This document shows, in pieces, positions 21,912 to 57,614 of a stretch of DNA of 64,000 nucleotides. This stretch comes from an uncultured Bacteroides sp. (GTDB lineage Bacteria > Bacteroidota > Bacteroidia > Bacteroidales > Bacteroidaceae). Under the pieces are notes generated by a model. That model saw nothing but the letters and a program-made list of their open reading frames with translations, made no database searches and had not been told where the DNA came from. The position numbers were made by a program, and so were the translations under genes. Every line of letters starts with the position of its first letter. Position 1 is the stretch's first letter. The stretch spans positions 1 to 64,000 of the forward strand of contig NZ_OY782578.1 in assembly GCF_963677945.1 (NCBI RefSeq). The letters are read 5' to 3'.

Positions 21912-21983
21912 TGTACAAAACAATTAATTCTTTTGTACAGAAGATCGAATTATTTTGTACAGAAGAATGCAATCTTTTGTACA
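21912..21983. repeat. Array of four TGTACA sites at exact 22-bp period
   Basis: TGTACA begins at 21912, 21934, 21956 and 21978, so the three intervals are each exactly 22 bp. Most units extend to TTTTGTACAGAAGA. The sequences between are only loosely similar. The array lies between convergent genes (prolyl oligopeptidase and fucosidase). Each site is palindromic and all fall on about the same helix face, as for cooperative protein binding. A second array with the same period is at 56569-56618. Confidence 0.7.
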
Positions 21984-46300: not shown

Positions 46301-47682
46301 TTGCCATGATGGCAAGAAATATCAGTATTACCTATCGGAATACTTATGCAATGACACTTCCAGGATATTTACCGGAAGTAGGTGATTTATTGGGACAGAA
46401 AAGAGCAGGCGGCATGTTTGCTCCGGGTCTGGATTTTGCTTTCGGTGTAACGGGTGATAGTTATATACAGAAAGCTGCAAAGAATAACTGGTTATTAATG
46501 AACGATTCTGTAGCAGACCCTGCAACAACCAATGCTATGGAAGATTTACAAATACGATTGACTTTAGAACCTATAAGAGATTTTAAGATAGACTTAACCG
46601 CCAACCGCACAATAAACAAATCACAGAGCATACAGTTTATGTTCGATGGTATGCCTACCACTCAGAATGGTAGTTTCAATATGAGTATTATTTCCATTGG
46701 AAGTGCATTCGAAAAGTGTAAAGCTGAAGATCTGTATCAGTCAAAAACATTTAATAAGTTCCTCAAGAATCTGGATATCATCCAGAAAAGAGTAGAAACT
46801 CAATATCTGGGCGCCATCTATCCGGAAGGAACCACACTAGCAGGTAAAACATTCAATCCGGAAAACGGAACAATCGACAAAAATTCTCCGGACGTAATGA
46901 TCCCCGCATTTCTTTCAGCTTATACAGGAAAGGATGTGAATAAGATTTCCCTTGATCTTTTCCCAAACTTACTATCAATGATGCCTAATTGGAGAATAAC
47001 TTATGGTGGGTTAAGCAAGCTGGAATGGTTTAAAAAACATTTCAAAAGTTTTAATCTGAATCATGCATACAGAAGTACTTATTCTGTTGGTTCATACAAT
47101 ACCTACCAAAGTTTCAGCAGATTTATGGGCAACCTCGGTTTTGTTGAAGATACACAAACAGGAGATCCGGTTCCCTCGGCAGCATTTGATATTGGTACAG
47201 TAGCTATTAATGAGCAATTCGCTCCGCTTTTCGGAGTAGATATGACCTTTAAGAATGGAATAACCACAAAAGTAGAATATAAAAAGACGAGAATACTTAC
47301 TTTAAGTATGACAGCAAATCAGATTGTTGAAACTAGCTCTAAAGATTTTGTTGTTGGCATGGGGTATAAAATTGTAGACCTGAAACTGTTTGGTGCAGGG
47401 AAAAGCAAGAATAAAGTCAGCAATGACCTGAACATTCAGGCAGATTTCTCTATTCGTAACCAATCTGCATTAAGCCGCGATATTCAGGAGGCCTTAGCTC
47501 AACCAACCAGTGGTAACAAGGCAACCAAGTTTTCATTATCTGCAGATTATACCTTCTCGAAATTGCTAACCATCCGTATGTATTATGACCGTCAGAAGAA
47601 TACCCCGCTGGTATCTTCCGCTTCCTATCCAGTAACCAATTCCGATTTTGGATTTACGCTGAAGTTTTCTTTGACAAGGTAA
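40303..47682 (+). CDS. sprA: Cell-surface protein SprA (type IX secretion outer-membrane channel homologue)
   Basis: In gliding Bacteroidota, SprA is the giant outer-membrane beta-barrel through which type IX cargo exits. The 2459-residue protein has a signal peptide (about 1-21) and the typical start with LFLTPEEYADW and FNFMNMKFDLGPAEKIFGPGG, the latter spanning more than one conserved block. It has long beta-rich repeats, and a C-terminus ending in FTLKFSLTR. The full-length frame is intact. No other type IX gene is seen in the window, so it may serve another role here. It follows ruvA directly. Confidence 0.93.
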   Translation: MRSGKWFICLLLTVLSIHAWAVLNNSSLFEVSNYYSAPTPQQPVPADSVKPRYSVKKTAPENLKDMDKSPVDLRNPDNLKTEVEYNEKTNQYLIRTKAGSTQVDVPLFLTPEEYADWSLKKSIQDFYREKNKETFAKGKDEFNFMNMKFDLGPAEKIFGPGGVQIKTQGNAELSFGFKSKNVENPTLPARSRKTLGFDFDEKINVNINGKVGDKVNMNMNYNTDATFDFDTKKIKLKYEGKEDEIVKLMEAGNVSMPTNSSLIHGATSLFGIRTDLQFGKLKLQTVISQQESESKTVNSKGGAQTTSFEISADSYDENRHFFLAQYFRDTYDKNMSQLPTITSGITINRIEVWITNKRGNYENPRNVVAMTDLGENEHISNSFWSKSGVNKVPANSANDVYTKMVNDYSNARNIDMVGTTLGAIPQLEGGMDYEKIESARLLSSSEYTINSSLGYISLKSTLQPDEVLAVAFEYTYKGKGYQVGEFAADVKDTNSALYLKLLKSTSNSPASGCWDLMMKNVYSLNAYDLQSKNFRLDIKYQSDTTGVYLNYIPEGSINKVPLLRVMNLDRLDANNQNNPNGFFDFVEGYTVTAQNGRIFFPVVEPFGSHLRKAIGNDVIAKKYVFQELYDSTKTVAKQIAEKDKFKFTGEYKASSGSEIRLGSTNIPVGSVKVTAGGVTLVENSDYTVDYSMGIVTIINQSIIDAGTSVSVNLESNSSYNLQRKTMLGMNFTYDFSKDFQIGGTIMHLSEKPMTTKVAMNEEPISNTIWGLNTSWKKESQWLTNMVDKLPFVKATQPSHINLTAEFAQLVPGHASGTQGNASYIDDFESTSTKIDLRQPSYWMLASTPYESGANALFPEASKSNDIAYGKNRALLSWYYIDGLFTRRSSSLTPSHIKSDLDQLSNHYVREVYEQEIFPNKETAYLETSTLSILNLAYYPNERGPYNLDTNLTPKGYLNNPEKRWGGIMRKLDTSDFETANIEYIEFWLLDPFIYQSTTGNRRGGDLYINLGEASEDILKDGKKYFENGMPVDGDPTKVKETVWGKVPTEQSIVYAFDNAAGARKKQDVGLNGLSAEEEKTFGTYSTYLDKLKSILEPAVYAQFEKSPSGDLYHYYRGTDYDQAEKSILERYKYYNNPEGNSTASEDSPEKYDVSAKTVPDVEDINQDYTLNEYEKYFQYKISLSPEDLKVGSNYIADKRTASVKLRNGKTEEVNWYQFKIPVKDYQKAVGSISDFKSIRFMRMFLTNFVDPVVLRFATFDLVRGDWRTYDQSLTNSTVSGSLDVSSVNIEENNDKTPVNYVLPPGITRVVDPSQPQLTQENEQSLSLKVKNLAPGDARAVYKSPALDLRQYKRLQMFIHGEKLLDDVTSLEDNEISVFIRLGSDYKNNYYEYEIPLKLTPHGQYNGSTLSGCEAVWPEANMLNIPFSLLTNLKKERNTAKNASGSNVSYTKLYYTYDADKPSNKISIMGNPSLAEVKTIMIGVRNNSRNLKSAEVWVNELRLTDYNESGGWAAQGNMNVQLSDIGNVNLAGHMETAGFGGLEQSVSERRMDDYYQYNFTTSFELGRFLPSKAKISAPLYFSYSKELTSPLYDPTNKDLLLDDVLDTYSLKSQRDSILNIARELVTYRNFSLSNAKINIVSKRPLPFDPGNFTFGYSYTKKYNQGNTTAWEVEKDWRSTLGYNYSPVIKAWEPFKNLKSKSPWMKFVKAFNLNWLPQNIAFNSDISRHYYELQLRDLDNPYGDSDIPLSVAKEFLWNRDFSLRWDLTRNLKLSFTSATRAEIEEPAGPVNKNLYPDEYTAWKDSIKTSLLNLGRPLDFQQSFNSSYKLPFDMIPILDWVNSDVKFASSYTWDRGADLTDGTSVGNTIANQRSIDVNSRFNFEKLYNKIPFLRETNRLFSSMSISAPGKKEDLMKKPNKFEREIQLKKDTTVTVSHGLRTKIVKVRAITQDGKRYFIKYKVLDSNKILVSNRDSIKIKLSIVPGPKPEEQGWYKIAQHAARFAMMARNISITYRNTYAMTLPGYLPEVGDLLGQKRAGGMFAPGLDFAFGVTGDSYIQKAAKNNWLLMNDSVADPATTNAMEDLQIRLTLEPIRDFKIDLTANRTINKSQSIQFMFDGMPTTQNGSFNMSIISIGSAFEKCKAEDLYQSKTFNKFLKNLDIIQKRVETQYLGAIYPEGTTLAGKTFNPENGTIDKNSPDVMIPAFLSAYTGKDVNKISLDLFPNLLSMMPNWRITYGGLSKLEWFKKHFKSFNLNHAYRSTYSVGSYNTYQSFSRFMGNLGFVEDTQTGDPVPSAAFDIGTVAINEQFAPLFGVDMTFKNGITTKVEYKKTRILTLSMTANQIVETSSKDFVVGMGYKIVDLKLFGAGKSKNKVSNDLNIQADFSIRNQSALSRDIQEALAQPTSGNKATKFSLSADYTFSKLLTIRMYYDRQKNTPLVSSASYPVTNSDFGFTLKFSLTR

Positions 47683-47701
47683 AGACTATTAAAAATAAAT
47701 T

Positions 47702-48220
47702 ATGATGAAAAAAATTGTATTACTCTCCGTTTTATTTTGCTTTCCTATTAACATTCTACTAGCACAAAAGATTAAAAATGCGGTAATAGTTGAAGAAAAT
47801 TATCTGGTCCGTGACAACGGTACAATTGATTACAACTCTATTATAAAAACAAAAAAGATAAGATACGACAAAGATGGAAGAGTTCTTTATTGTCATGAAA
47901 AGGATAAAAAATGCAAAACAGATCAGATCTTTGAATCAAATGAATTCACCTCTATTGATAGAAGTGACAACGACTCGCTGATTCAGCATATTTGTAAATA
48001 CAACGAAAAAGGCGATATAACAGAACACAAAGTTATTTCTCCAAACAATACATCTTTATTTACCTATGAGTATTTCTATTTAGGAGCTTTCACCTATAAA
48101 AAGAAAAATAGAAAACAGTTTATCGATGGCTATGTTCCTCAAAATGTTTGGGTAAGAAGAACAACTCTGAAAGATGGAAAAGTTGTGGAAGTTATTAATC
48201 GTAAGATTGCTAATAAATGA
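47702..48220 (+). CDS. Secreted protein of unknown function
   Basis: The 172-residue protein has a signal peptide (about 1-22, ending LLAQ). I do not recognise its family. The mature part is charged, with short repeating turns of the type YDKDGRVLYC and YNEKGDITEHK, which recall antiparallel beta repeats of the YD/MORN-like class. It lies 19 bp after sprA and may share its transcript. Confidence 0.55.
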   Translation: MMKKIVLLSVLFCFPINILLAQKIKNAVIVEENYLVRDNGTIDYNSIIKTKKIRYDKDGRVLYCHEKDKKCKTDQIFESNEFTSIDRSDNDSLIQHICKYNEKGDITEHKVISPNNTSLFTYEYFYLGAFTYKKKNRKQFIDGYVPQNVWVRRTTLKDGKVVEVINRKIANK

Positions 48221-48289
48221 AACGATTAAAGTATTAAGAACCAACTTCTTTAAGAAACAAATAAAAAGTGAAATAACAAATTAAGTTTT

Positions 48290-48297
48290 TATATTTG
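48290..48297 (+). promoter_or_regulatory. -7 box TATATTTG of the ABC transporter operon
   Basis: TATATTTG fits TAnnTTTG. With transcription starting near 48304, an ATG at 48308 would be almost leaderless, which favours 48323. Confidence 0.45.
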
Positions 48298-48322
48298 TGG
48301 TTAAGAAATGGGTAGTATTATA

Positions 48323-49264
48323 ATGGAAACTAATTTAAAAGTTATTATTGTGAAGGAATACTTCTTAATACAATTGAAAAGAGGCACAAGATTCTTTTCG
48401 GATAATGGATTAAATCCTATTTGGGGATATATATTCACAATCTTGCTTTTTATCCTTATTTCTTTATTAGTAACCTCTTTGAATTATGGAGTATATTTTT
48501 ATTTAGGCATTGCCCTCTTTATTGCGACCAAATTGAGTGAGCTTAACAGAAACGAATTTTTAAAGAATTGCTTTCTTAGGTATAGTTATATTAAAATAAG
48601 AATACTAGAAAATATTCTTATTATTTTACCATTTTGTTTTGTTCTGATATACAAGGGTTATTATCTAATAACCTCAATTCTTCTTATTATAAGCATTATA
48701 ATGAGCCAAGTCAACATTAATAAAATAAATGGATTCGTTTTACCGACTCCATTTTATAAAGAACCTTTTGAATTTGCTGTTGGATTTAGAAAAACATTTA
48801 TCTTCTTTTTATTCCCTTATTTCCTTGCATTTAAAGCATACGAGGTCGATAATTTTAATTTAATATATGCCTCATATATTTCCATCCTCATAATTGTGAT
48901 AACGTATTATAACGATATTGAAGATGTCTTTTTTGTTTGGATATTTAATATGAGTGCTAAAGAGTTCCTAATGATGAAATTATTGACTGCATCGAAATAT
49001 ACAATCATGCTATGCATACCTATATTACTTTTTTCCGTATTTAGTTTTCCTAATAAAATACTCATTCAGCTTTGCATGGTTGTAGTTCTTATCTTTGCCA
49101 TAATATTTACAATTTTACTAAAATATTCTACTTATCCTAATAAAATTGAACCATCAATAGCAAAGATACTAATATTTGGAATCTTTTTCCCACCTTTTCT
49201 TTTAATATCTTTACCTATTTTATATTGCAATTCCATTAATAAATTAAAAAATCATTTGGAATGA
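48323..49264 (+). CDS. Integral membrane protein, probable ABC transporter permease
   Basis: The protein of about 313 residues has eight to ten hydrophobic helices (for example at about 40-75 and 100-125, and four more toward the C-terminus) and no recognisable motif. It overlaps the following ATPase gene by four bases (ATGA), which makes it that protein's membrane partner. Substrate is unknown. A start at 48308 is possible but lies very close to the -7 box. Confidence 0.65.
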   Translation: METNLKVIIVKEYFLIQLKRGTRFFSDNGLNPIWGYIFTILLFILISLLVTSLNYGVYFYLGIALFIATKLSELNRNEFLKNCFLRYSYIKIRILENILIILPFCFVLIYKGYYLITSILLIISIIMSQVNINKINGFVLPTPFYKEPFEFAVGFRKTFIFFLFPYFLAFKAYEVDNFNLIYASYISILIIVITYYNDIEDVFFVWIFNMSAKEFLMMKLLTASKYTIMLCIPILLFSVFSFPNKILIQLCMVVVLIFAIIFTILLKYSTYPNKIEPSIAKILIFGIFFPPFLLISLPILYCNSINKLKNHLE

Positions 49265-49944
49265 TAAAAATAGAAAATCTTTCGAAATCATTTGGAGCAA
49301 AACAAGTCCTATCCAATATAAATATAAGTGTTGAAAAAGGTAAGGTTTATGGTTTTGTTGGAGAAAACGGAGCTGGTAAAAGTACTTTATTTAAATGTAT
49401 AGCTGGCTTAGAAAAATACCAAGGCAGAATTTTATCTGATTATAGTTTATTGAAAAAACATATTGGCTTTTTACCTACTCAACCTTACTTTTTTACAAGA
49501 ATTACAGGAAAAGAATATTTACAACTATTCTGTAATGCCCGCAAAATCAAAAATATAGATTTTGATGCATACAATATATTTAATTTGCCTTTACAGGAAT
49601 ATGCTATATCATATTCTATTGGAATGAAGAAAAAACTCGCTCTTACTGCACTTCTATTACAAAAAAATGACATATACATATTCGATGAACCTTTTAATGG
49701 TATTGATTTCGAGGGAAGTATAATAATATTAAAGATAATCAACAAATTAAGAGAAAGAGATAAGACCGTAATTATATCGTCTCATATTTTTTCTACTTTA
49801 AGTGATACTTGTGATGAGATATTTATAATAAACCGTGGCGTTATTAATGAAAAAATATTTAAGGAGGATTTCTTTATTTTTGAAAGTAAAATAAAGAAAA
49901 TGGTATATAGCAATGACCTTAAAATAGATAATATTGATTTCTGA
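49261..49944 (+). CDS. ABC transporter ATP-binding protein
   Basis: The 227-residue ATPase has Walker A GENGAGKST (about 35-43) and Walker B IYIFDEP followed by a switch histidine in IISSHIFSTL. The signature helix reads YSIGMKKKLAL rather than the usual LSGGQ, a pattern frequent in small ABC-2-type exporters. It overlaps the membrane gene. Transport direction is presumably export; the cargo is unknown. Confidence 0.88.
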   Translation: MIKIENLSKSFGAKQVLSNINISVEKGKVYGFVGENGAGKSTLFKCIAGLEKYQGRILSDYSLLKKHIGFLPTQPYFFTRITGKEYLQLFCNARKIKNIDFDAYNIFNLPLQEYAISYSIGMKKKLALTALLLQKNDIYIFDEPFNGIDFEGSIIILKIINKLRERDKTVIISSHIFSTLSDTCDEIFIINRGVINEKIFKEDFFIFESKIKKMVYSNDLKIDNIDF

Positions 49945-50114
49945 ATTATTATTTAGAAAGAAAATCTGATTTTATTATTAGGATTTATATATAATTCTCT
50001 AAATTTTAACGTTCTCGGTAAATTCAATATTTTATATTTACCTTTTTCTACTTTATTATGAGAATCTCTTGTTAAATGAGCATTGGAACTAACTTAACAG
50101 CTACAATATATTTT

Positions 50115-50351
50115 CTATTCAAATATAGAAAAATATAGTGAAAATAATCCTAGCAAAGCTAGTGCAAGAACGAGTAAACCTATAATAGAATTAAAAAAAA
50201 TCTGAGAAGCATTATTTATTTTATCTTTTCCTTTTCCTGATAAATAATTAATGTTTTTTTTCTTACCTAGTAGCCAAAAGAAGTAATAACGAGAATAAAG
50301 ACCTACTGTATTTGCAACATATCCTTCAATAAATAACTCAAACAAATTCAT
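50115..50351 (-). CDS. Small membrane protein of unknown function
   Basis: From the ATG at 50351 the protein has 78 residues: an N-terminal amphipathic part with GLYSRYYFFWLLGKKKNINYLSG, too long to be a single motif, and a C-terminal membrane helix (IIGLLVLALALLGLFSLYF). A GTG at 50399 gives a longer but less likely frame. It lies in an accessory island of small minus-strand genes. Function unknown. Confidence 0.5.
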   Translation of the reverse strand: MNLFELFIEGYVANTVGLYSRYYFFWLLGKKKNINYLSGKGKDKINNASQIFFNSIIGLLVLALALLGLFSLYFSIFE

Positions 50352-50446
50352 ATTACTAATTTTTAATCTTCCAAATACCAATAAATTTATCTCCCCCACT
50401 TCCTTTATACTATTTTTTTAGACTTCTACTGCCATATATATAAGGC

Positions 50447-50641
50447 TCAAAGTTTAAATATTTCTCTCAAGAATAGTCCTAATCCACCCATAATCATGAG
50501 TATTGCACCTGTATATAACCCAATCGTGTTGCCATAAGGGTCTTTATAATCTTCCTCTGTTTTTATTATAGTAAAAACTATAATAACTATTCCAACAATA
50601 AATAAAATGAACCCCAATACTGCATTCCAAAAATTAATCAT
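50447..50641 (-). CDS. Small membrane protein, two helices
   Basis: The 64-residue protein has two membrane segments (about 5-27 and 40-58) joined by a short polar loop with KTEEDYKDPYGN. No family is recognised. Its position, 48-95 bp from the next small membrane gene, suggests a shared transcript. Confidence 0.5.
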   Translation of the reverse strand: MINFWNAVLGFILFIVGIVIIVFTIIKTEEDYKDPYGNTIGLYTGAILMIMGGLGLFLREIFKL

Positions 50642-50822
50642 ATTCTCTATTATATTACTTATTAGCCTCTCCCCCCATCAAAGGTAATAAAACCAGCTCA
50701 ATTAGTGATAACTTTACCATTTTTATCAAGTTAATTTATTTACTATTCCATCTAAATAAATTATCTTAATTATCAACATTTTCACCAAAAGTTTAATCCG
50801 GTTTCTATTATTATATTTTAAA

Positions 50823-51257
50823 CTATTGAGGAACAATCTTAAATGGTAAAAACATCCACATTCTAATTTGTCTATTTTCATAATCCTTAATACTTAGAGT
50901 ATCATATGAAAATTTAATATTTTCTTTATTAACTCTAACGATTGAATCTAACAAGAAAGCTATTCTTTTGGCTGAACTAACTTTTTTTAGATTTTCGCTT
51001 ACATTTGATAAAATCACATCTGAGGTATCTCGTGTTTCTGCACTAAAAAAGGTCGTCTTTGTAATACTAGGAGTTCCATTCTTCACATCAAAAGTACAAA
51101 TCATCTTTGCTATACAAGAAATTGTATCATTGGTATTCATTTTGAAAACCATTCTTTCATCAAATGTAAGAATTCTTATTGGTACATAATCTTGCGGCCA
51201 AGCTAAATTATTAATAATAATCAATGAAATTGAAATAATTATCAGCTTTATTTTCAT
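50823..51257 (-). CDS. Secreted protein of unknown function
   Basis: The 144-residue protein starts with a signal peptide (about 1-22, ending LAWPQ). The mature part is mixed alpha/beta without cysteine-rich or catalytic motifs that I can identify. It belongs to the A+T-rich run of small genes at 50-54.6 kb. Confidence 0.5.
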   Translation of the reverse strand: MKIKLIIISISLIIINNLAWPQDYVPIRILTFDERMVFKMNTNDTISCIAKMICTFDVKNGTPSITKTTFFSAETRDTSDVILSNVSENLKKVSSAKRIAFLLDSIVRVNKENIKFSYDTLSIKDYENRQIRMWMFLPFKIVPQ

Positions 51258-51441
51258 AACTTTTCTATCCAGTAATAGTGATAATCAATAATATAGAAAA
51301 TACAAAAACACATCCAAGAACTTTCATTATTCTTATGCCTTAAAATTAATAATTCCAATAAATACCTCCATGTTATTTATCTGATTGAAGGCATTCTATT
51401 TTGTAATAAGTGTTATCAGTCAGATGCTGCCGAAGTTTATA

Positions 51442-52080
51442 TTATTCACAATAAAAGACTTTTATACTACTTATACCACTTCTTATTAACCGCATTTCTG
51501 TAATTTGACTATCTTCTAATGGTTTCAAATCTATAGCTTCTTTCAAAACTGCAATATTCTTGATATTAGTTTCAGGCTTGGAGCAAAAACAACTTTCGTG
51601 AGGTGGTTCTGGCTCAAGAACCGTTATACCAAAATAAAATACAACAAATCCAGTAAACCGATAAATACTGTATAAATTATCACACCCTTCTTTCGTAAAG
51701 AAAGATACACTTTTTACTATTTTACTTCCTAATTCCTCTGTGTGGAAATTATAATTAGAAATAGATAAGTCATGTTTATAAATAAGACTACTTAGCTCAA
51801 GCAAATAATCATTCTCATAATCAGTATAATCTCCCAATACACTTTTAAGGCTTGGATATTTCTTTAAAATACCAACATTAGCAACTGAATTTTGAATAAA
51901 CCTAATAGTATCACCATTATATATCAAAAAGGTTTTATCCTCACAGTAAGTTCCATATGCATTTAAGGAATATTTATTTAAGATAATTCCATCAATAAGT
52001 TTAATTTTAGCAGAAGTTAACTGCGTAAAAGCATTTATACTTAAGAACAAGTATAGTAAAACAAACAGAATGCGTTTCAT
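51442..52080 (-). CDS. Secreted protein of unknown function
   Basis: The 212-residue protein has a signal peptide (about 1-19, ending NAFTQ). A cluster ESCFCSKPE near residue 165 could hold a disulfide or metal. No family is recognised. The next gene upstream encodes a lipoprotein on the same strand. Confidence 0.5.
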   Translation of the reverse strand: MKRILFVLLYLFLSINAFTQLTSAKIKLIDGIILNKYSLNAYGTYCEDKTFLIYNGDTIRFIQNSVANVGILKKYPSLKSVLGDYTDYENDYLLELSSLIYKHDLSISNYNFHTEELGSKIVKSVSFFTKEGCDNLYSIYRFTGFVVFYFGITVLEPEPPHESCFCSKPETNIKNIAVLKEAIDLKPLEDSQITEMRLIRSGISSIKVFYCE

Positions 52081-52167
52081 TATTCTATAATTTTATGTTT
52101 TAATTGTAAACTCATAACATATAACCACATTAGCTTTCAATTTATTCTTTTAATTAAGCTAAGAAAC

Positions 52168-52656
52168 TCAATAGATTCTTTGCCTATGTAGATATATGTA
52201 CCATTTCTGGTTTTCAACAGTTTTGTGCCACATTCCGGTCATACCTTTTAATGCATTAATAAAAATAGTATCATAATAAGGTCTTTCTTTACCAGCATAT
52301 TTTCTATGCATAATGCGAATTTCTTTAATATTCAAATCCTTATCAAATAATATAAAGAAATGTTCATAAACATTGTATTCGTTATAATTATAATCTGGGT
52401 GATTGACATATTTTGATAAAAGATATTCGGATAATGAGTCTCGCCCACCATTGAATTCTATCCCTCCAGAGTATGCAGTCTTTTTTTTCCCATTTACAGA
52501 ATAATAAATTACTCTGTCATTTTTCAAAAGAAAACTAATTGGGCGTCCATCTATATCCTTGATTGCCTGTTGCCGGATTTCCTTATCTGATCCACAACCA
52601 TTTAATCCTATTAAAAGAGCAATGAACAATCCAATATATCTCAATCTAATAATCAT
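52168..52656 (-). CDS. Lipoprotein with TonB C-terminal-like domain
   Basis: The 162-residue protein has a type II signal peptide (LIGLNGC, Cys at about 21). From about residue 65 the pattern EFNGGRDSLSEYLLSKY, then FILFDKDLNIKEIRIM, then ALKGMTGMW and a final beta strand, follows the layout of the TonB C-terminal domain. There is no proline-rich linker or inner-membrane anchor, so it is not a working TonB; such domains recur in secreted or immunity-like Bacteroidota proteins. The assignment is by eye. Confidence 0.5.
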   Translation of the reverse strand: MIIRLRYIGLFIALLIGLNGCGSDKEIRQQAIKDIDGRPISFLLKNDRVIYYSVNGKKKTAYSGGIEFNGGRDSLSEYLLSKYVNHPDYNYNEYNVYEHFFILFDKDLNIKEIRIMHRKYAGKERPYYDTIFINALKGMTGMWHKTVENQKWYIYLHRQRIY

Positions 52657-52774
52657 AAACCAATCTTTTTAAAAAACTGTTGCACGTTTATTGTATGTAA
52701 AATCGTCTACACTTTTTTCTCCATTTGTATATGGCGTCAGCTTTCTTCTATCCATTTCTTATTAACGGCTTTTG

Positions 52775-53262
52775 TCAATGTGCATTGACTTTTTCTTCTT
52801 GAGAATTAGGATAAATATAAATCCATAAAAACAATCCGGTTTTCAAATATATAGATCCTTTCATACCTTTCATATACTTTTTTGAAGCATCATAAATTTT
52901 AATCTCTTGTTTTTTAAGGAAACTATAAACATGCTTTGTCATAGAATCAAATATAAACGCCCGTTTATTATTTATATACTTACTAATAAAGTCTATTTTT
53001 TTATTATCTAATACACGTCTGACATCCATTCTATCTATATTCACTTTCACTAGAGATATACTATTATCCGTTTTTTCTGAAAAATTAATTCAGTAGAAAG
53101 TATACATCTTAATGGAATACCTGTATCACCATAAAAGACAAGAGAATCAAGCGATTCATATGCATAATCTATTTAATTTACATTTTGAGAAAAGACAGAT
53201 AAGTTGCTACCATAAAACAAAAATAATAGCAATGCCAAAATGAATTTATATTTTGTTCGCAT
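52775..53262 (-). pseudogene. Broken gene for a small secreted protein
   Basis: A start at 53262 gives a good signal peptide (MRTKYKFILALLLFLFYGS) ending near SQ, then a TAA after QNVN. The same frame continues open with IDYAYESLDSLVFYGDTGIP, and a frame change near 53080 joins it to the 91-residue frame that ends at 52775. One stop and one frameshift thus interrupt a protein of about 160 residues. The family is unknown. Decay fits an immunity or accessory gene no longer selected. Confidence 0.6.
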
Positions 53263-53361
53263 CATATAGTTATTTAAATAATAAACTTTACACTTTAGTA
53301 TTATACATAGACTACAATTTTGATAAAGCCCATAGGATTACAATATTTTTACAACTATGGG

Positions 53362-53835
53362 TTAGTCATATTGTTTTAAGACTTTTCGTTTCATGTTTTC
53401 ATCTGGCCAAACCTCTATTCTGTAATAATCATTATCTGTATCATGCGCTAAGTCAGTTTCAAGAACACTTGCTAAATTTGAAGAATATACTCTTACTCTA
53501 TACTTTCCATTATTTATTTTTATTCTTATCTCACTACAATTACCTGTACAAGCGGATATCTGTATTTCATTTTCTCTAATCTCGAGGCCAGCTTCCACAA
53601 TATGGTCATATTTATCAGAATCAATATTAGATGATGGACCTGGTAAGATTTCTATTTCACCTTTTATATATCCGTAACTTTGCGTTCCAATACCTAACAC
53701 ACCTTTTTCTATTGCTAAGCGCTGTCTACAAGCTTCATCTGACCAAAAATCAGAGTTCGATGTATCACCAATATAATCTTTATCGTGAACATAGAACTGA
53801 TTATATTCTGTGTAAAAATTAAAATTAATCTTCAT
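53362..53835 (-). CDS. ComJ-like protein (nuclease-inhibitor family)
   Basis: The 157-residue cytoplasmic protein resembles Bacillus ComJ, the inhibitor of the DNA-entry nuclease. It shares the order YNQFYVHDKD, FWSDEACRQ, GVLGIGTQ and, after a central strand region, GKYRVRVYSS. ComJ-like proteins often serve as immunity proteins against nuclease toxins. No nuclease gene is adjacent, so it would be an orphan. The relation is by pattern, without an alignment. Confidence 0.5.
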   Translation of the reverse strand: MKINFNFYTEYNQFYVHDKDYIGDTSNSDFWSDEACRQRLAIEKGVLGIGTQSYGYIKGEIEILPGPSSNIDSDKYDHIVEAGLEIRENEIQISACTGNCSEIRIKINNGKYRVRVYSSNLASVLETDLAHDTDNDYYRIEVWPDENMKRKVLKQYD

Positions 53836-53916
53836 ATTAAAGTGTATCCTTTTTGACTCTAAAGCTCATTACTATTTACTTTTACTATCAAAAACAACAT
53901 TTTTTTTGAGAAACGA

Positions 53917-54429
53917 TCAATCCTTAAATTGTTTATAAAACTCGCATATATCTTTTTGTCCATCTAAATCTTTTAAAATTGAGTCTATCATTTGTTTCTT
54001 ATATTCATCATGATTTTCTTTCGTTCTTTCTTCATTAAGAAATTTCACACATCGAACAATTTCCTTTTTATCTAATGGAGGTTGCATGTTTATAATCATA
54101 CTATATGCACCCATATAGATCTCTCCATCATCTGTATTTTCAATGATAAGATCTATTAAAAACTTAAGATACTTAGAATTAGTTGTATATTCTCCCAAGA
54201 GATAAAGCAATGTCCCATTCCTATTCTTCCATTTAGGATCTTTGATCAATTTGACTAAACAATCCTCAATTCTATCATCTTTAAAATTATCCACTAATAC
54301 AAAAGCAACTTTATTACAAAGTGCAAAATTATTTGTGTTCATCAAAAAATTGATTAATTGTGTAGCATATACTTCTTTTCGTGATTCTATTTCCTTTATG
54401 AGATTTTCAATTGTTGAAATATCTTCCAT
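53917..54429 (-). CDS. Helical-repeat (HEAT/ARM-like) protein, possible immunity protein
   Basis: The 170-residue protein is almost entirely helical. Helix pairs of about 35 residues are visible (for example NKVAFVLVDNFKDDRIEDCL and NGTLLYLLGEYTTNSKYLKF), typical of HEAT-like repeats. It has no signal peptide. Such short repeat proteins are common as immunity proteins beside toxins, but no toxin gene is present here. Function unproven. Confidence 0.5.
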   Translation of the reverse strand: MEDISTIENLIKEIESRKEVYATQLINFLMNTNNFALCNKVAFVLVDNFKDDRIEDCLVKLIKDPKWKNRNGTLLYLLGEYTTNSKYLKFLIDLIIENTDDGEIYMGAYSMIINMQPPLDKKEIVRCVKFLNEERTKENHDEYKKQMIDSILKDLDGQKDICEFYKQFKD

Positions 54430-54466
54430 TTTATTTCATTTTTGATTTATCCATTTTAATTCATGT

Positions 54467-54556
54467 TTAATAAAACTCATTCAATTCTTCTATTGTTGCA
54501 TTTCCTCATCCGCACAACAATAATCCACAAACTAAAAATATAATAATATTTTTCAC
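54467..54556 (-). pseudogene. Lipoprotein gene remnant
   Basis: A GTG at 54556 starts VKNIIIFLVCGLLLCG, a lipoprotein signal, followed by TGA where the lipobox cysteine codon TGT or TGC would be. The frame then reads GNATIEELNEFY before a TAA. This looks like a signal peptide inactivated by one base change in a gene whose body is lost. Evidence is short, so the call is tentative. Confidence 0.3.
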
Positions 54557-54895
54557 TTCTACCAAGTTTAATAAACAACAATTTAAGGCATTAAGATCTT
54601 ATTTTATATTTAATCCTACAGCATCCAAACATTTGTCTGTTTAACTATTGTTTCTACAGAAAAAGAATAAATACATTTGGTAAATTTAATATATCTTATT
54701 GAATTACTGACATCTTTAGAATGATTATTATATATTACATAGATGTAAAAAAATGACTTTAAATCAATTTTGGTGGCAGCTGTGGCAGGAAAAAAGACCT
54801 TTTTGGCTTCCCAGAAATAGAAATTTGAAAATTATGCAAATTGGAGTAGCTAACTAAAATCGAACATAAAGTTAAGCTAAATGTTTTAACTTATT

Positions 54896-55192
54896 ATGGG
54901 AGAAAGAAAAGAATACGACTCTGATTTCAAAGTCAACGCAGTCAAATTAAGCTATGAGAGAAAGAACCTCACTGGCTTATCCAGAGATCTTGGTATAACG
55001 CCATATCTGATCTATCGTTGGAGAAAAGAATATAGCCAATATGGTGAAGGAAGTTTTCCTGGCAATGGAGTTCCTAAGTTGACTCCTGAGGAGAAAGAAA
55101 TAGCCGAGCTTAGAGAAAAGCTTCGAAAAATAGAAGTTGAAAATGAAATATTAAAAAAAGCGCTTCACATTATCTCCAAGAGCGATCGATGA
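54896..55192 (+). CDS. IS3-family transposase OrfA
   Basis: The 98-residue protein binds the element ends. It has a helix-turn-helix (YDSDFKVNAVKLSYERKN through LGITPYLIYRWRKEY) and a C-terminal leucine-zipper-like coiled coil (AELREKLRKIEVENEILKKA). The run of seven A followed by G at 55153-55160, in the frame A AAA AAA G, is a likely -1 slippery site. The -1 frame stays open into orfB, so an OrfAB fusion is expected. Confidence 0.92.
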   Translation: MGERKEYDSDFKVNAVKLSYERKNLTGLSRDLGITPYLIYRWRKEYSQYGEGSFPGNGVPKLTPEEKEIAELREKLRKIEVENEILKKALHIISKSDR

Positions 55193-56079
55193 TTTATCAG
55201 TTCATACGTTCCAATGATAAGATCTGGCCGATTGAGGTAATGTGTAATGTTCTTAAAGTGTCCCGAAGTGGTTATTACAGATGGATTAAAGGTCCTCAAA
55301 GCAGACGGGCCGTAAAACGTAAATCCATCTGTAAAGAAATTCAGATTGAATACTTTCTGGCAAAATGCCGTTATGGAAGTATACGAATAACTAAGGAGCT
55401 AAATAAAAGGAATGTAAAGATTTCCAGAACAACTGTTGCACATTATATGAAAGAGATGGGTATTCAAAGCAAATTATCAAAGAAATATAAGATTACTACA
55501 GATTCAAATCATTCCGAACCGGTGGCAAATAATATTCTTAACCGATCTTTTGAGATGGATATACCTTCAAAGGCTTGGGTCTCTGATATTACTTATATAC
55601 CAGTCGTTGGAGGATTTCTATATTTAACAAGTGTGATTGATCTTTTTGACAGAAAAATAATTGGATGGAGTGTTAGCGAAAATATGGCAAGTGAATCGAC
55701 TGTCATACCAGCCTTTAATATGGCTGTAAGCAATCGTAAACCTCAAATGCAAATGATATTTCATTCTGACAGAGGCTCACAATATGCCAGCAAAGCTATG
55801 GTTAGTATGTTGAGATCCTATGGTATTTGTCAAAGCATGAGCCGTAAAGGAAATTGCTGGGATAACGCTGTTGCAGAGAGTTTCTTTAAAACGTTAAAGG
55901 CAGAACTTATCTATGGGAATAAGTTATTGTCTAAAGGAAAAATGAAAACGCAATTATTTGAGTTTATCGAAATATGGTATAATAGAAAAAGAAGACATTC
56001 TGCTCTTAAGAACCTCACTATTGAGGAATATTGGAATGAATATATTCAGAAAATTAATAAATTGTCGAATGTTGCTTAA
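55189..56079 (+). CDS. IS3-family transposase OrfB (DDE integrase)
   Basis: The 296-residue catalytic part has an HTH_21 region (about 45-105) and the rve integrase core. The acidic triad is visible as Asp in AWVSDITYIP, Asp in FHSDRGSQYAS and Glu in NAVAESFFKTLKAE. Its ATG overlaps the orfA stop (ATGA). Expression is probably by frameshifting from orfA. Confidence 0.95.
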   Translation: MIYQFIRSNDKIWPIEVMCNVLKVSRSGYYRWIKGPQSRRAVKRKSICKEIQIEYFLAKCRYGSIRITKELNKRNVKISRTTVAHYMKEMGIQSKLSKKYKITTDSNHSEPVANNILNRSFEMDIPSKAWVSDITYIPVVGGFLYLTSVIDLFDRKIIGWSVSENMASESTVIPAFNMAVSNRKPQMQMIFHSDRGSQYASKAMVSMLRSYGICQSMSRKGNCWDNAVAESFFKTLKAELIYGNKLLSKGKMKTQLFEFIEIWYNRKRRHSALKNLTIEEYWNEYIQKINKLSNVA

Positions 56080-56246
56080 CCTTCTGTCTAATTTTAGTTG
56101 GCAATTCCAAATTGCGGAATTATCAAATTTTTATTTTCAGAATCGAAAAAAGTATTATTTTGCTGCCACTGCTACCACCTACTAAACTTTACACAATTAA
56201 TAATCAACCTATTACAAAATACAACAACAGGAGAATCAGCAAAAAA

Positions 56247-56383
56247 GGGTGGACAGGGTGGAGTAAAAAAAACCTTTTTCGGTTTCCAGAAAATAAATTT
56301 CAATAATTCTGCAAATTGCGGAATTATCAAAAATAGATTTCTCAGAACGAAAAAAGAACAATTTCTCTCCACCCTGTCCACCC
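56247..56383. repeat. Palindromic repeat element, copy 2 (uninterrupted)
   Basis: The arms GGGTGGACAGGGTGGAG (56247-56263) and CTCCACCCTGTCCACCC (56367-56383) are perfectly complementary over 17 bp. The interior has AACCTTTTTCGGTTTCC, then a central near-palindrome around GCAAATTGC with ATAATTC and GAATTAT on either side. The arm sequence differs from copy 1 at many positions, yet pairs within its own copy. No ORF is convincing. Confidence 0.8.
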
Positions 56384-56568
56384 CAATAAAGGTTATTGTA
56401 TTAATAATAAGAGAATTACTATTTCACATAATTTATTTAAAACGAAAAACCAACGATTTAATCGGTCAACTGATTATAGGCTTTGGAACAGTAGTAGTCA
56501 ACTGGAATCAGTTTAGTACAGTTCTCGGCAAATATTAATCATTTATTGGCGGGAGATTGCGGCAAACA

Positions 56569-56618
56569 TGTACATATTTGGAAGTAAACATGTACATGAT
56601 TGAGTTCAAACATGTACA
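56569..56618. repeat. Array of three TGTACA sites at exact 22-bp period
   Basis: TGTACA begins at 56569, 56591 and 56613, exactly 22 bp apart, each within ACATGTACAT. The array lies between the IS/repeat region and the 3' end of the lipoprotein gene. The period equals that of the four-site array at 21912-21983. Apart from the array and the partial GGCGGGAG word at 56549, nothing is seen in 56384-56714. Confidence 0.7.
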
Positions 56619-56714
56619 TGTTTGGGAAAAGATAACCTTATATTTTGGCTAATTAGTCTAGTTAAGTTGTCTAATTAGCCTATATCTTTGAATTATATTA
56701 TGCTGGGAAGTATT

Positions 56715-57542
56715 TTACTTACCTTTTGATTCCACCTCTATTTTCTTTTTCACGAAACGGATCTTCAGATTGGCTTCTTCCAGTTCTTTCTTTATCTGGT
56801 TAATTGAATTAAGAGCTTGCGCCAATTCGTAAACCTGACAAACGGCATTTCTATCGGCAGATGAGAAGCTTACCGCTTTTCTGCCATTACCTACAAATTC
56901 CAGTTTGAGGTTCTGACCTTTATTCATGTAAATAAATGCTGCAACTCCCCCATCGGCACCCATTCGGTAATCTACTTTTTCCGATTTTACGCCCATATCC
57001 GTTGATTCGTAAACATCGCGACTTGCTGGTGTTTCTGCAAAACTTCCGTCGAGTGCAGTTACACGGATGGAACGATGATGGATACTGGAACCTCCGTTAT
57101 AAATGGAAGTAAGTGCAAAAACACCGGTTTCACTAACCTGAGCTCGCAGGTAAGTACGACGGAGATTTTTTTCCACTGTCTGAGAAGGATGAAGGTAATT
57201 ACCTACAGTCTGGTATTCTGCATTCTTTTCCAGAACCAGACTTTTCTTTTTCTGATCAGCAGCAGCTTGTTTTATCTTTAACACGCTATCAAGATAAACA
57301 ACACTTCTTTCCTGCTCCTTTATTTCCACTTGCTCCATCAGACTAATTCCCTTTCTGCGGGCTTCAAATGCTTTGGGATAAAGTATTTTAATACTATCAA
57401 GCTGCAACTTTGCTTCACTATATTTACCTTGTGCATAGGCTTCTTCGGCCGCTTGTAATTTCAAGGCAGCTTCCTTTTCACCATTACCACTACACGCTGT
57501 GAGTGCTAATACTGTAAGTGCTATGAATCCAAACTTTCTCAT
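56715..57542 (-). CDS. Lipoprotein with TPR-like N-terminus, unknown function
   Basis: From the ATG at 57542 the protein has 275 residues, with a lipobox LTAC (Cys at about 17). An earlier in-frame ATG would add eight residues before the signal and is less likely. Residues 25-110 are helical with one TPR-like pair (EEAYAQGKYSEAKLQLDSIK) and coiled coil. The middle is beta-rich (HHRSIRVTALDG) and the end is a coiled coil (about 230-275). No family name is known to me. It is divergent from the cca-type gene. Confidence 0.65.
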   Translation of the reverse strand: MRKFGFIALTVLALTACSGNGEKEAALKLQAAEEAYAQGKYSEAKLQLDSIKILYPKAFEARRKGISLMEQVEIKEQERSVVYLDSVLKIKQAAADQKKKSLVLEKNAEYQTVGNYLHPSQTVEKNLRRTYLRAQVSETGVFALTSIYNGGSSIHHRSIRVTALDGSFAETPASRDVYESTDMGVKSEKVDYRMGADGGVAAFIYMNKGQNLKLEFVGNGRKAVSFSSADRNAVCQVYELAQALNSINQIKKELEEANLKIRFVKKKIEVESKGK

Positions 57543-57614
57543 ATTTATATTTGTTATAGAAGGCAAAAATACAATTAAATTGCCAAACCTATCCTTTACC
57601 TGCTCAAATTATTG

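Follow-up and report, generated by a model that had tools for sequence, protein, structure and literature searches.

In pRN1, a stem-loop of 100 nt situated just 3′ of the primase-helicase gene is required for replication, and a similar stem-loop is found in phage BIP-1, both being proposed replication origins (PMC4234260). The pRN1 primase starts at GTG, and mutations of the GTG are tolerated while the stem stays symmetrical; the same authors saw no specific binding between protein and stem-loop in vitro, and state that there is no direct evidence for the origin (PMC4234260). In PICI, the origin directly follows the 3′ end of the initiator gene, and two sets of iterons flank an AT-rich region there (PMC6092414). 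The alpha protein of phage P4 is a primase-helicase whose C-terminal winged helix is the part that binds repeats (PMC4234260). REPs are palindromes of 20-40 bp (PMC3733652), which bind IHF and serve as targets of insertion sequences (PMC1525189), and in P. gingivalis a 77-bp inverted repeat is bound by the HU protein PG0121 (PMC3969353).

The window analysed here, a stretch of 64,000 nucleotides from an uncultured Bacteroides sp., contains two palindromes of a family that is scattered through the chromosome and some copies of which adjoin genes for the primase-helicase VapE. The VapE-linked copies resemble the pRN1 and BIP-1 stem-loops in that a large imperfect hairpin comes right after a gene for a protein that combines primase, SF3 helicase and winged-helix domains, the structure being kept while the sequence changes. 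Unlike those stem-loops, the present palindromes have arms of tandem iterons, lie mostly far from such a gene, are dispersed over the chromosome and stand in pairs, with IHF-like sites. With the PICI origins they share a position 3′ of an initiator gene, in the VapE-linked copies, and two iteron sets flanking an A+T-rich region, whereas a PICI origin belongs to its island and here many copies are orphans, with the iteron sets forming the inverted arms of a fixed 137-bp palindrome. As for phage P4, the origin iteron of which is GGTGAACAG, the likeness lies in a primase-helicase with a repeat-binding C-terminal winged helix and, if that iteron is right, in a GGTG-type repeat, whereas the P4 repeats are not scattered through the host chromosome. 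The REP/BIME elements with their RAYT proteins are likewise interspersed palindromes in pairs or clusters, with a link to IHF, a role as insertion targets and a partner gene bearing the same repeat; in contrast, the present elements are 137 bp long with tandem-iteron arms, their partner is a replication initiator, and no Y1 transposase was found in the window's own genome. The P. gingivalis repeat also combines a long imperfect inverted repeat with an HU-family protein in Bacteroidota, but it occurs at a single capsule locus, and the passages of PMC3969353 name neither iterons nor a primase-helicase. No description of scattered primase-helicase origin palindromes was found in the passages available from the open-licence literature. 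By their layout, the VapE-linked copies fit the pRN1/PICI kind of origin, of which the window copies would be orphans.

The palindromes of the window

An earlier note on this DNA had described two palindromes of about 137 bp with arms that pair within each copy, and this description holds (Table 1), the arms agreeing at 15 of 17 positions in copy 1 and at 17 of 17 in copy 2. Without its insertion, copy 1 measures 71 + 66 = 137 bp, copy 2 likewise has 137 bp, and the two start 204 bp apart when the insertion is discounted. The insertion, which we take to be of IS3 type by its two-frame architecture, is flanked on either side by the 5-bp repeat AAATT (54838-54842 and 56109-56113).

Table 1. Features at and around the two palindromes of the window
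Feature	Position	Strand	Details
Copy 1 (class I iteron palindrome), left part	54772-54842	+	left arm 54772-54788 GGTGGCAGCTGTGGCAG
Insertion sequence within copy 1	54843-56108	+	two overlapping transposase frames, imperfect terminal inverted repeats
Transposase frame of insertion	54896-55192		HTH_Tnp_1
Transposase frame of insertion	55189-56079		rve integrase core
Copy 1, right part	56114-56179	+	right arm 56163-56179 CTGCCACTGCTACCACC
IHF-like site AATCAACCTATTA	56202-56214	+	in linker, 22 bp from class I palindrome edge
Copy 2 (class II iteron palindrome), intact	56247-56383	+	arms 56247-56263 GGGTGGACAGGGTGGAG and 56367-56383
Type B array	56567-56620	.	three TGTACA-centred palindromic sites, 22-bp period, 183 bp from copy 2

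A domain search of the neighbouring genes (53917-54429 and 56715-57566) gave no primase or helicase family, and an Rfam search of window 54000-57500 gave four matches, every one under the gathering score expected of a known Rfam RNA. In G003, a relative among the other genomes searched, the locus is collinear with the window except that a 9-kb segment (window 47673-56712), palindromes included, is replaced by 219 bp. At this single orthologous site compared, the difference is the 9-kb segment and not a clean insertion, and hence no insertion point of the palindromes can be read from it.

Size and distribution of the family

The window's own genome (G000, 4.57 Mb) contains 16 full-length copies (136-138 bp), found by BLAST and then by a covariance model built from 11 copies, which matched all 16 on both strands with best-strand E-values of 9e-31 to 2e-13. 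Three further copies are broken: window copy 1, which gives weak pieces with the model and the right part of which has E 1.6e-7 in BLAST; a copy at 665,029, disrupted by an insertion and identified through its left arm (E 0.3 in BLAST, 0.06 with the model); and a remnant of 51 bp at 675,637, which the model matches at E 0.05. The arm pattern GGTGKMRNWGGTGKMR matches the genome 20 times, as against 2 for the reversed control, and 17 of the 20 are family arms. When 41 genomes, the own one included, were searched, under filters that lose some weak matches, three had matches, namely G000, G003 and G010. G003 has 19 positions, at two of which the match is to the right-hand part of a palindrome interrupted by a group II intron, while the one match in G010 has the same arm layout with a different interior. 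Six more copies lie in loci of Bacteroides luti DSM 26991 and two in a soil Bacteroidetes genome; over 2.6 kb, one locus of G000 shares 96.6% identity with B. luti, which makes it probable that the host is closely related to that species.

Along the chromosome, the full copies of G000 all fall within the first 54% of the contig (56 kb to 2.46 Mb), with none from 2.46 to 4.57 Mb, and a similar copy-free gap is seen in G003 at 1.17-2.64 Mb; GC skew, taken in 20 samples along the chromosome, is noisy. The group II intron of G003 splits a class II palindrome at two loci (L074 2560-3963 and L075 2554-3957), and in that of L074 RVT_1 and maturase domains were matched.

Anatomy of the palindrome and agreement of its arms

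Every palindrome has two tandem 9-bp iterons (GGTG...) at each end, inverted with respect to each other, enclosing some 100 bp of A+T-rich DNA; two iteron sets or arms about an A+T-rich centre are also a feature of the 3′ origins of the pRN1/PICI type. Two classes can be distinguished, class I with iterons that are mostly GGTGGCAGA or GGTGTCAGA, and class II with iterons of the GGTGTACAT, GGTGTAGAT or GGGTGGAGA types, placed one base inward. In the alignment of 40 copies, 39 are of 137 bp and one is of 138 bp; it omits broken copies, the distant G010, L100, L142, L145 and L108 matches, and a chimeric copy with disagreeing arms. The latter (G000 2326587-2326722, L095 2588-2723) is of full length, with a class II left arm and a class I right arm that agree at 10 of 19 positions, and is perhaps a pair that collapsed through recombination.

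Over the 40 copies, standard pairs fill 98.1% of the cells of the 17 arm pairs, 13 of which vary on both sides. The agreement between the two arms of one copy averages 16.6 of 17, as against a mean of 11.8 and a maximum of 13.7 in 10,000 reassignments, and the covariation score of the whole structure is 0.249, as against 0.140 for shuffles and at most 0.113 when the partners are slid; in all these arm and covariation statistics, related copies are not independent. Pairs changed on both sides (33 vs 35.6) and further pair types (76 vs 79.7) are not above shuffles. The maintained palindromic family with arms that change together, for which the earlier note had proposed a search and an alignment of copies, thus emerges from both, in the number of copies and in the agreement within them.

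Such agreement is no proof of a hairpin by itself, because four iterons read by one protein would equally give agreeing arms. In L080 class II and in L096, the iterons differ and yet the arms still agree (19/19 in each), such that the agreement goes beyond iteron identity. Of the two causes which the earlier note had offered, selection on a hairpin or correction of one arm by the other, general correction is spoken against by the interior, where pairing is found in 72.8% of cells as compared with 98.1% in the arms.

Pairs and IHF-like sites

At all 16 pair loci, a class I palindrome stands together with a class II palindrome; at three of these loci one member is split or a remnant, in addition to the split window copy 1, and with some loci being orthologues the 16 correspond to approximately 11-12 separate sites. 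The start-to-start distances are 193 bp (8 loci), 203-204 bp (6) and 214 bp (2), values that differ by roughly one turn of the helix each. The sequence WATCAANNNNTTR, which we take as the IHF consensus and used to score IHF-like sites, is present in 23 of the 69 segments of flank and linker, as against a mean of 1.1 and a maximum of 4 in 200 shuffles. Within the 16 linkers, the IHF-like site is 22 bp from the class I edge in 11, 21 bp in one and absent in four; in 10 other segments, its distance to a class I edge is 9-11 bp (7), 21 bp (2) or 31 bp (1), and two of the 10 sites lie inside vapE 3′ ends. This fixed spacing is owed in part to shared descent.

VapE partner genes

The earlier note's suggestion that a primase-type gene be sought beside such arms proved fruitful, the partner being the VapE primase-helicase. 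There are 9 matches to the profile PF05272 in G000 and 11 in G003, some of them partial, and a palindrome stands 5-11 bp after the stop codon of four VapE genes, two in each genome. A position directly 3′ of a primase-helicase gene, as in pRN1 and PICI, is true of these four copies and untrue of the others, both window copies included. The palindrome-linked VapE proteins are of two types, GGTGTCAG and GGTGGCAG. In three of the four loci an HU-family gene starts at most 700 bp further on, and in the fourth an insertion lies between; the HU gene at one of the loci matches PF18291 at 5.5e-19.

The VapE proteins of G000 that were tested, seven in number, all share the order BT4734-like_N, VapE and DUF3874, with one DUF3874 match just under the cut-off; DUF3874 is presumably of winged-helix nature. 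The names of these matched families give no function. NCBIfam gave no name to two of three VapE proteins and matched the third below its cut-off, and the VapE profile has a match at 1.7e-23 to the PDB chain 7pds_A, described as 'Similar to D. nodosus vapE'. VapE-domain genes are present in 45 of 60 genomes sampled from the genus. DUF3987 primases are absent in G000, G003 and G010.

Other VapE genes have other hairpins at this place, for example one with AGTGATAGG tandem arms around 130 bp; of this type there is also one orphan copy (3,626,304-3,626,429). Among the VapE genes that were read in G000 and G003, none was followed by a 3′ hairpin with class II arms, and class II palindromes have no partner gene among them. 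An inverted repeat with tandem-repeat arms, by thresholds that were fixed after a first look at VapE genes, lies 3′ of 14 of 45 VapE genes, 0 of 163 other G000 genes and 0 of 900 shuffles. The 45 genes, from 17 G000/G003 loci and 28 loci L213-L240 that rank among the best matches of the genus sample, are not a random set and include orthologues; the partial matches G000 4296025, G000 4299527 and G003 3271143 and both G010 matches are left out. Simple inverted repeats are found 3′ of 28 VapE genes and of 46 of the 163 ordinary genes; because the latter have them too, the short VapE hairpins may be terminators. Seventeen of the 45 have no strong 3′ inverted repeat, and 11 of 43 have an upstream inverted repeat scoring at least 13. 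The motif TGGCACG-N4-TTG, which we take to be sigma-54-like, stands at most 120 bp upstream of vapE in all four palindrome-linked loci (L195, L196, L204 and L205).

The same four loci permit the protein to be compared with its palindrome. The G003 paralogues L204 and L205 are 97.8% identical in the body of the protein, 81.2% in the C-terminus and alike in 105 of 158 columns over the first 150 bp 3′ of the stop codon. Between L204 and L195 of G000, in contrast, the C-terminus is 94.0% identical and the palindrome DNA agrees at 142 of 150 positions, with a body of 83.8%; between L205 and L196 of G000 the values are 87.5% for the C-terminus and 136 of 151 for the palindrome DNA. Since the similarities of C-terminus and palindrome part from that of the body, these two have moved together between gene copies. 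Linkage alone, through gene conversion of neighbouring sequences, could give the same picture in place of a reading function of the C-terminus. The joint exchange suggests a readable protein-DNA code, with the VapE C-terminus on one side and the 9-bp iteron on the other.

The same layout in other genomes and viruses

A pattern of the layout alone (GGTGNCANNGGTGNCA...inverse), which matches 19 of the 40 family copies, was found in 50 genome stretches and 9 viral stretches. In seven of the viral stretches, the match either comes 26-77 bp after a gene for VapE (4, close relatives), DUF5906 (2) or Prim-Pol (1) or overlaps the end of such a gene, and in the other two it is inside coding frames. In 10 of the 50 genome stretches (L099, L102, L103, L113, L116, L133, L135, L145, L146 and L148, where L146 is included by weak matches alone and L099, L133 and L148 are one element) it is found where a gene matching DUF927, DUF5906, DUF3987/DUF3631 or Prim-Pol ends. 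In 13 of the 50 (one by way of the identical contig L086), the tested neighbour is not of primase-helicase type; the neighbours were examined in 23 of the 50, and many of the remaining 27 matches are inside coding frames. Similar palindromes in four Myxococcus records and in two contigs of one Abditibacterium MAG, with one neighbour tested in each, look like orphans.

Proposed function of the scattered palindromes

On balance, the scattered palindromes would seem to be chromosomal orphan copies of an origin-type recognition or loading site of the VapE primase-helicase. The C-terminal domain of VapE would read the iterons, and an IHF/HU-type protein would bend the linker such that the two palindromes meet; at the joined palindromes the helicase would then assemble and open the A+T-rich centre, with the N-terminal domain acting to prime. 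The orphans would be gene-less derivatives of the VapE-HU intergenic region, which may now be either passengers of the VapE system or domesticated loading sites. Binding of VapE to the palindromes, and replication at them, are what we infer from their sequence and position. Several observations weigh against this reading: class II has no partner among the VapE genes read, 17 of 45 VapE genes are without a strong 3′ inverted repeat, 11 of 43 score for one upstream, and 10 of the 50 genome stretches with the layout pattern adjoin the end of a primase-helicase-type gene. The family would be an interspersed bacterial repeat tied to replication initiators rather than to a transposase, and with a predicted site for many VapE genes, binding, replication and domestication become directly testable.

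A more far-reaching suggestion, put forward tentatively, is that the VapE/HU-type modules and the scattered two-palindrome sites together form a resident chromosomal initiation system, in which a former satellite or plasmid replication initiator now acts at some twelve fixed stations, aided by bending of the IHF-like kind, and has its iteron specificity set by an exchangeable C-terminal domain. Such a system, if real, would correspond to REP/RAYT with a replication initiator in place of the transposase, and would have parallels in other phyla.

The earlier note had thought of REP/RAYT-like elements, a comparison that falters on the partner gene, which is a VapE primase-helicase, and on the profile PF01797 (Y1_Tnp), which has 0 matches in G000 while 5 of 14 control genomes match. 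That the palindromes are mobilised by a transposase as a REP/BIME-like or MITE-like element, with the link to VapE being incidental, seems unlikely for this reason and for several others: the palindrome stands at one place behind four VapE genes, the C-terminus of the protein tracks the iteron type, and 39 of 40 aligned copies are of exactly 137 bp, the family's range of 136-138 bp being outside the 20-40 bp of REP palindromes. What such an element would account for are the many, mostly intergenic copies, their BIME-like pairs and IHF-like sites, and the fact that palindromes have been hit by an insertion sequence, a DDE-transposase element and a group II intron, REPs being both bound by IHF and insertion targets (PMC1525189).

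Operators for a dimeric regulator, or bidirectional terminators, kept for gene regulation and used in one instance by VapE for its own autoregulation, would be in keeping with the position of most copies between genes, often facing gene 3′ ends, with the commonness of simple inverted repeats behind ordinary genes (46 of 163) and with the TGTACA operator-like arrays beside most palindromes. The fixed length of 137 bp, the four iterons, the pairing of unlike classes and the fixed IHF-like spacing exceed the needs of a terminator, however, and a use in replication is suggested by the same iteron layout following genes of unrelated primase-helicase families, making a regulatory site an improbable reading. 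That the orphans are a host counter-measure, serving to decoy or to sense replication initiators which phages or satellites bring in on infection, is highly improbable, since despite the related iteron palindromes behind primase-helicase genes in phage-like contigs, no viral contig matched the interior pattern of the family, which fits 21 of the 40 copies.

TGTACA arrays

Of 31 palindrome sources, 27 contain clustered TGTACA sites, in most cases three of them within 54 bp (type B), as against 1 such cluster in 300 kb of control sequence; the cluster lies 106-255 bp from the nearest palindrome where nothing is inserted; among the matches listed, and judged by eye, 3 of 13 type B arrays have no nearby palindrome. 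A second kind, type A, has in many cases four sites with a 22-bp period (CTTTTGTACAAAAG with AATTAATT or ATTGCAAT spacers), as at window 21912-21983, and its pattern has 120 forward matches in G000 and 139 in G003, two per four-site array, as against 3 and 4 when reversed. No type A array among the matches listed adjoins a 137-bp palindrome, and one is contained in the 219 bp that replace the 9-kb segment in G003 (L259 16987-17205). A 383-aa DDE transposase frame, or the end of its element, repeatedly adjoins a type B array (L074, L075, L076, L083, L084, L085, L079 and L263), as if this array were a favoured target of the element.
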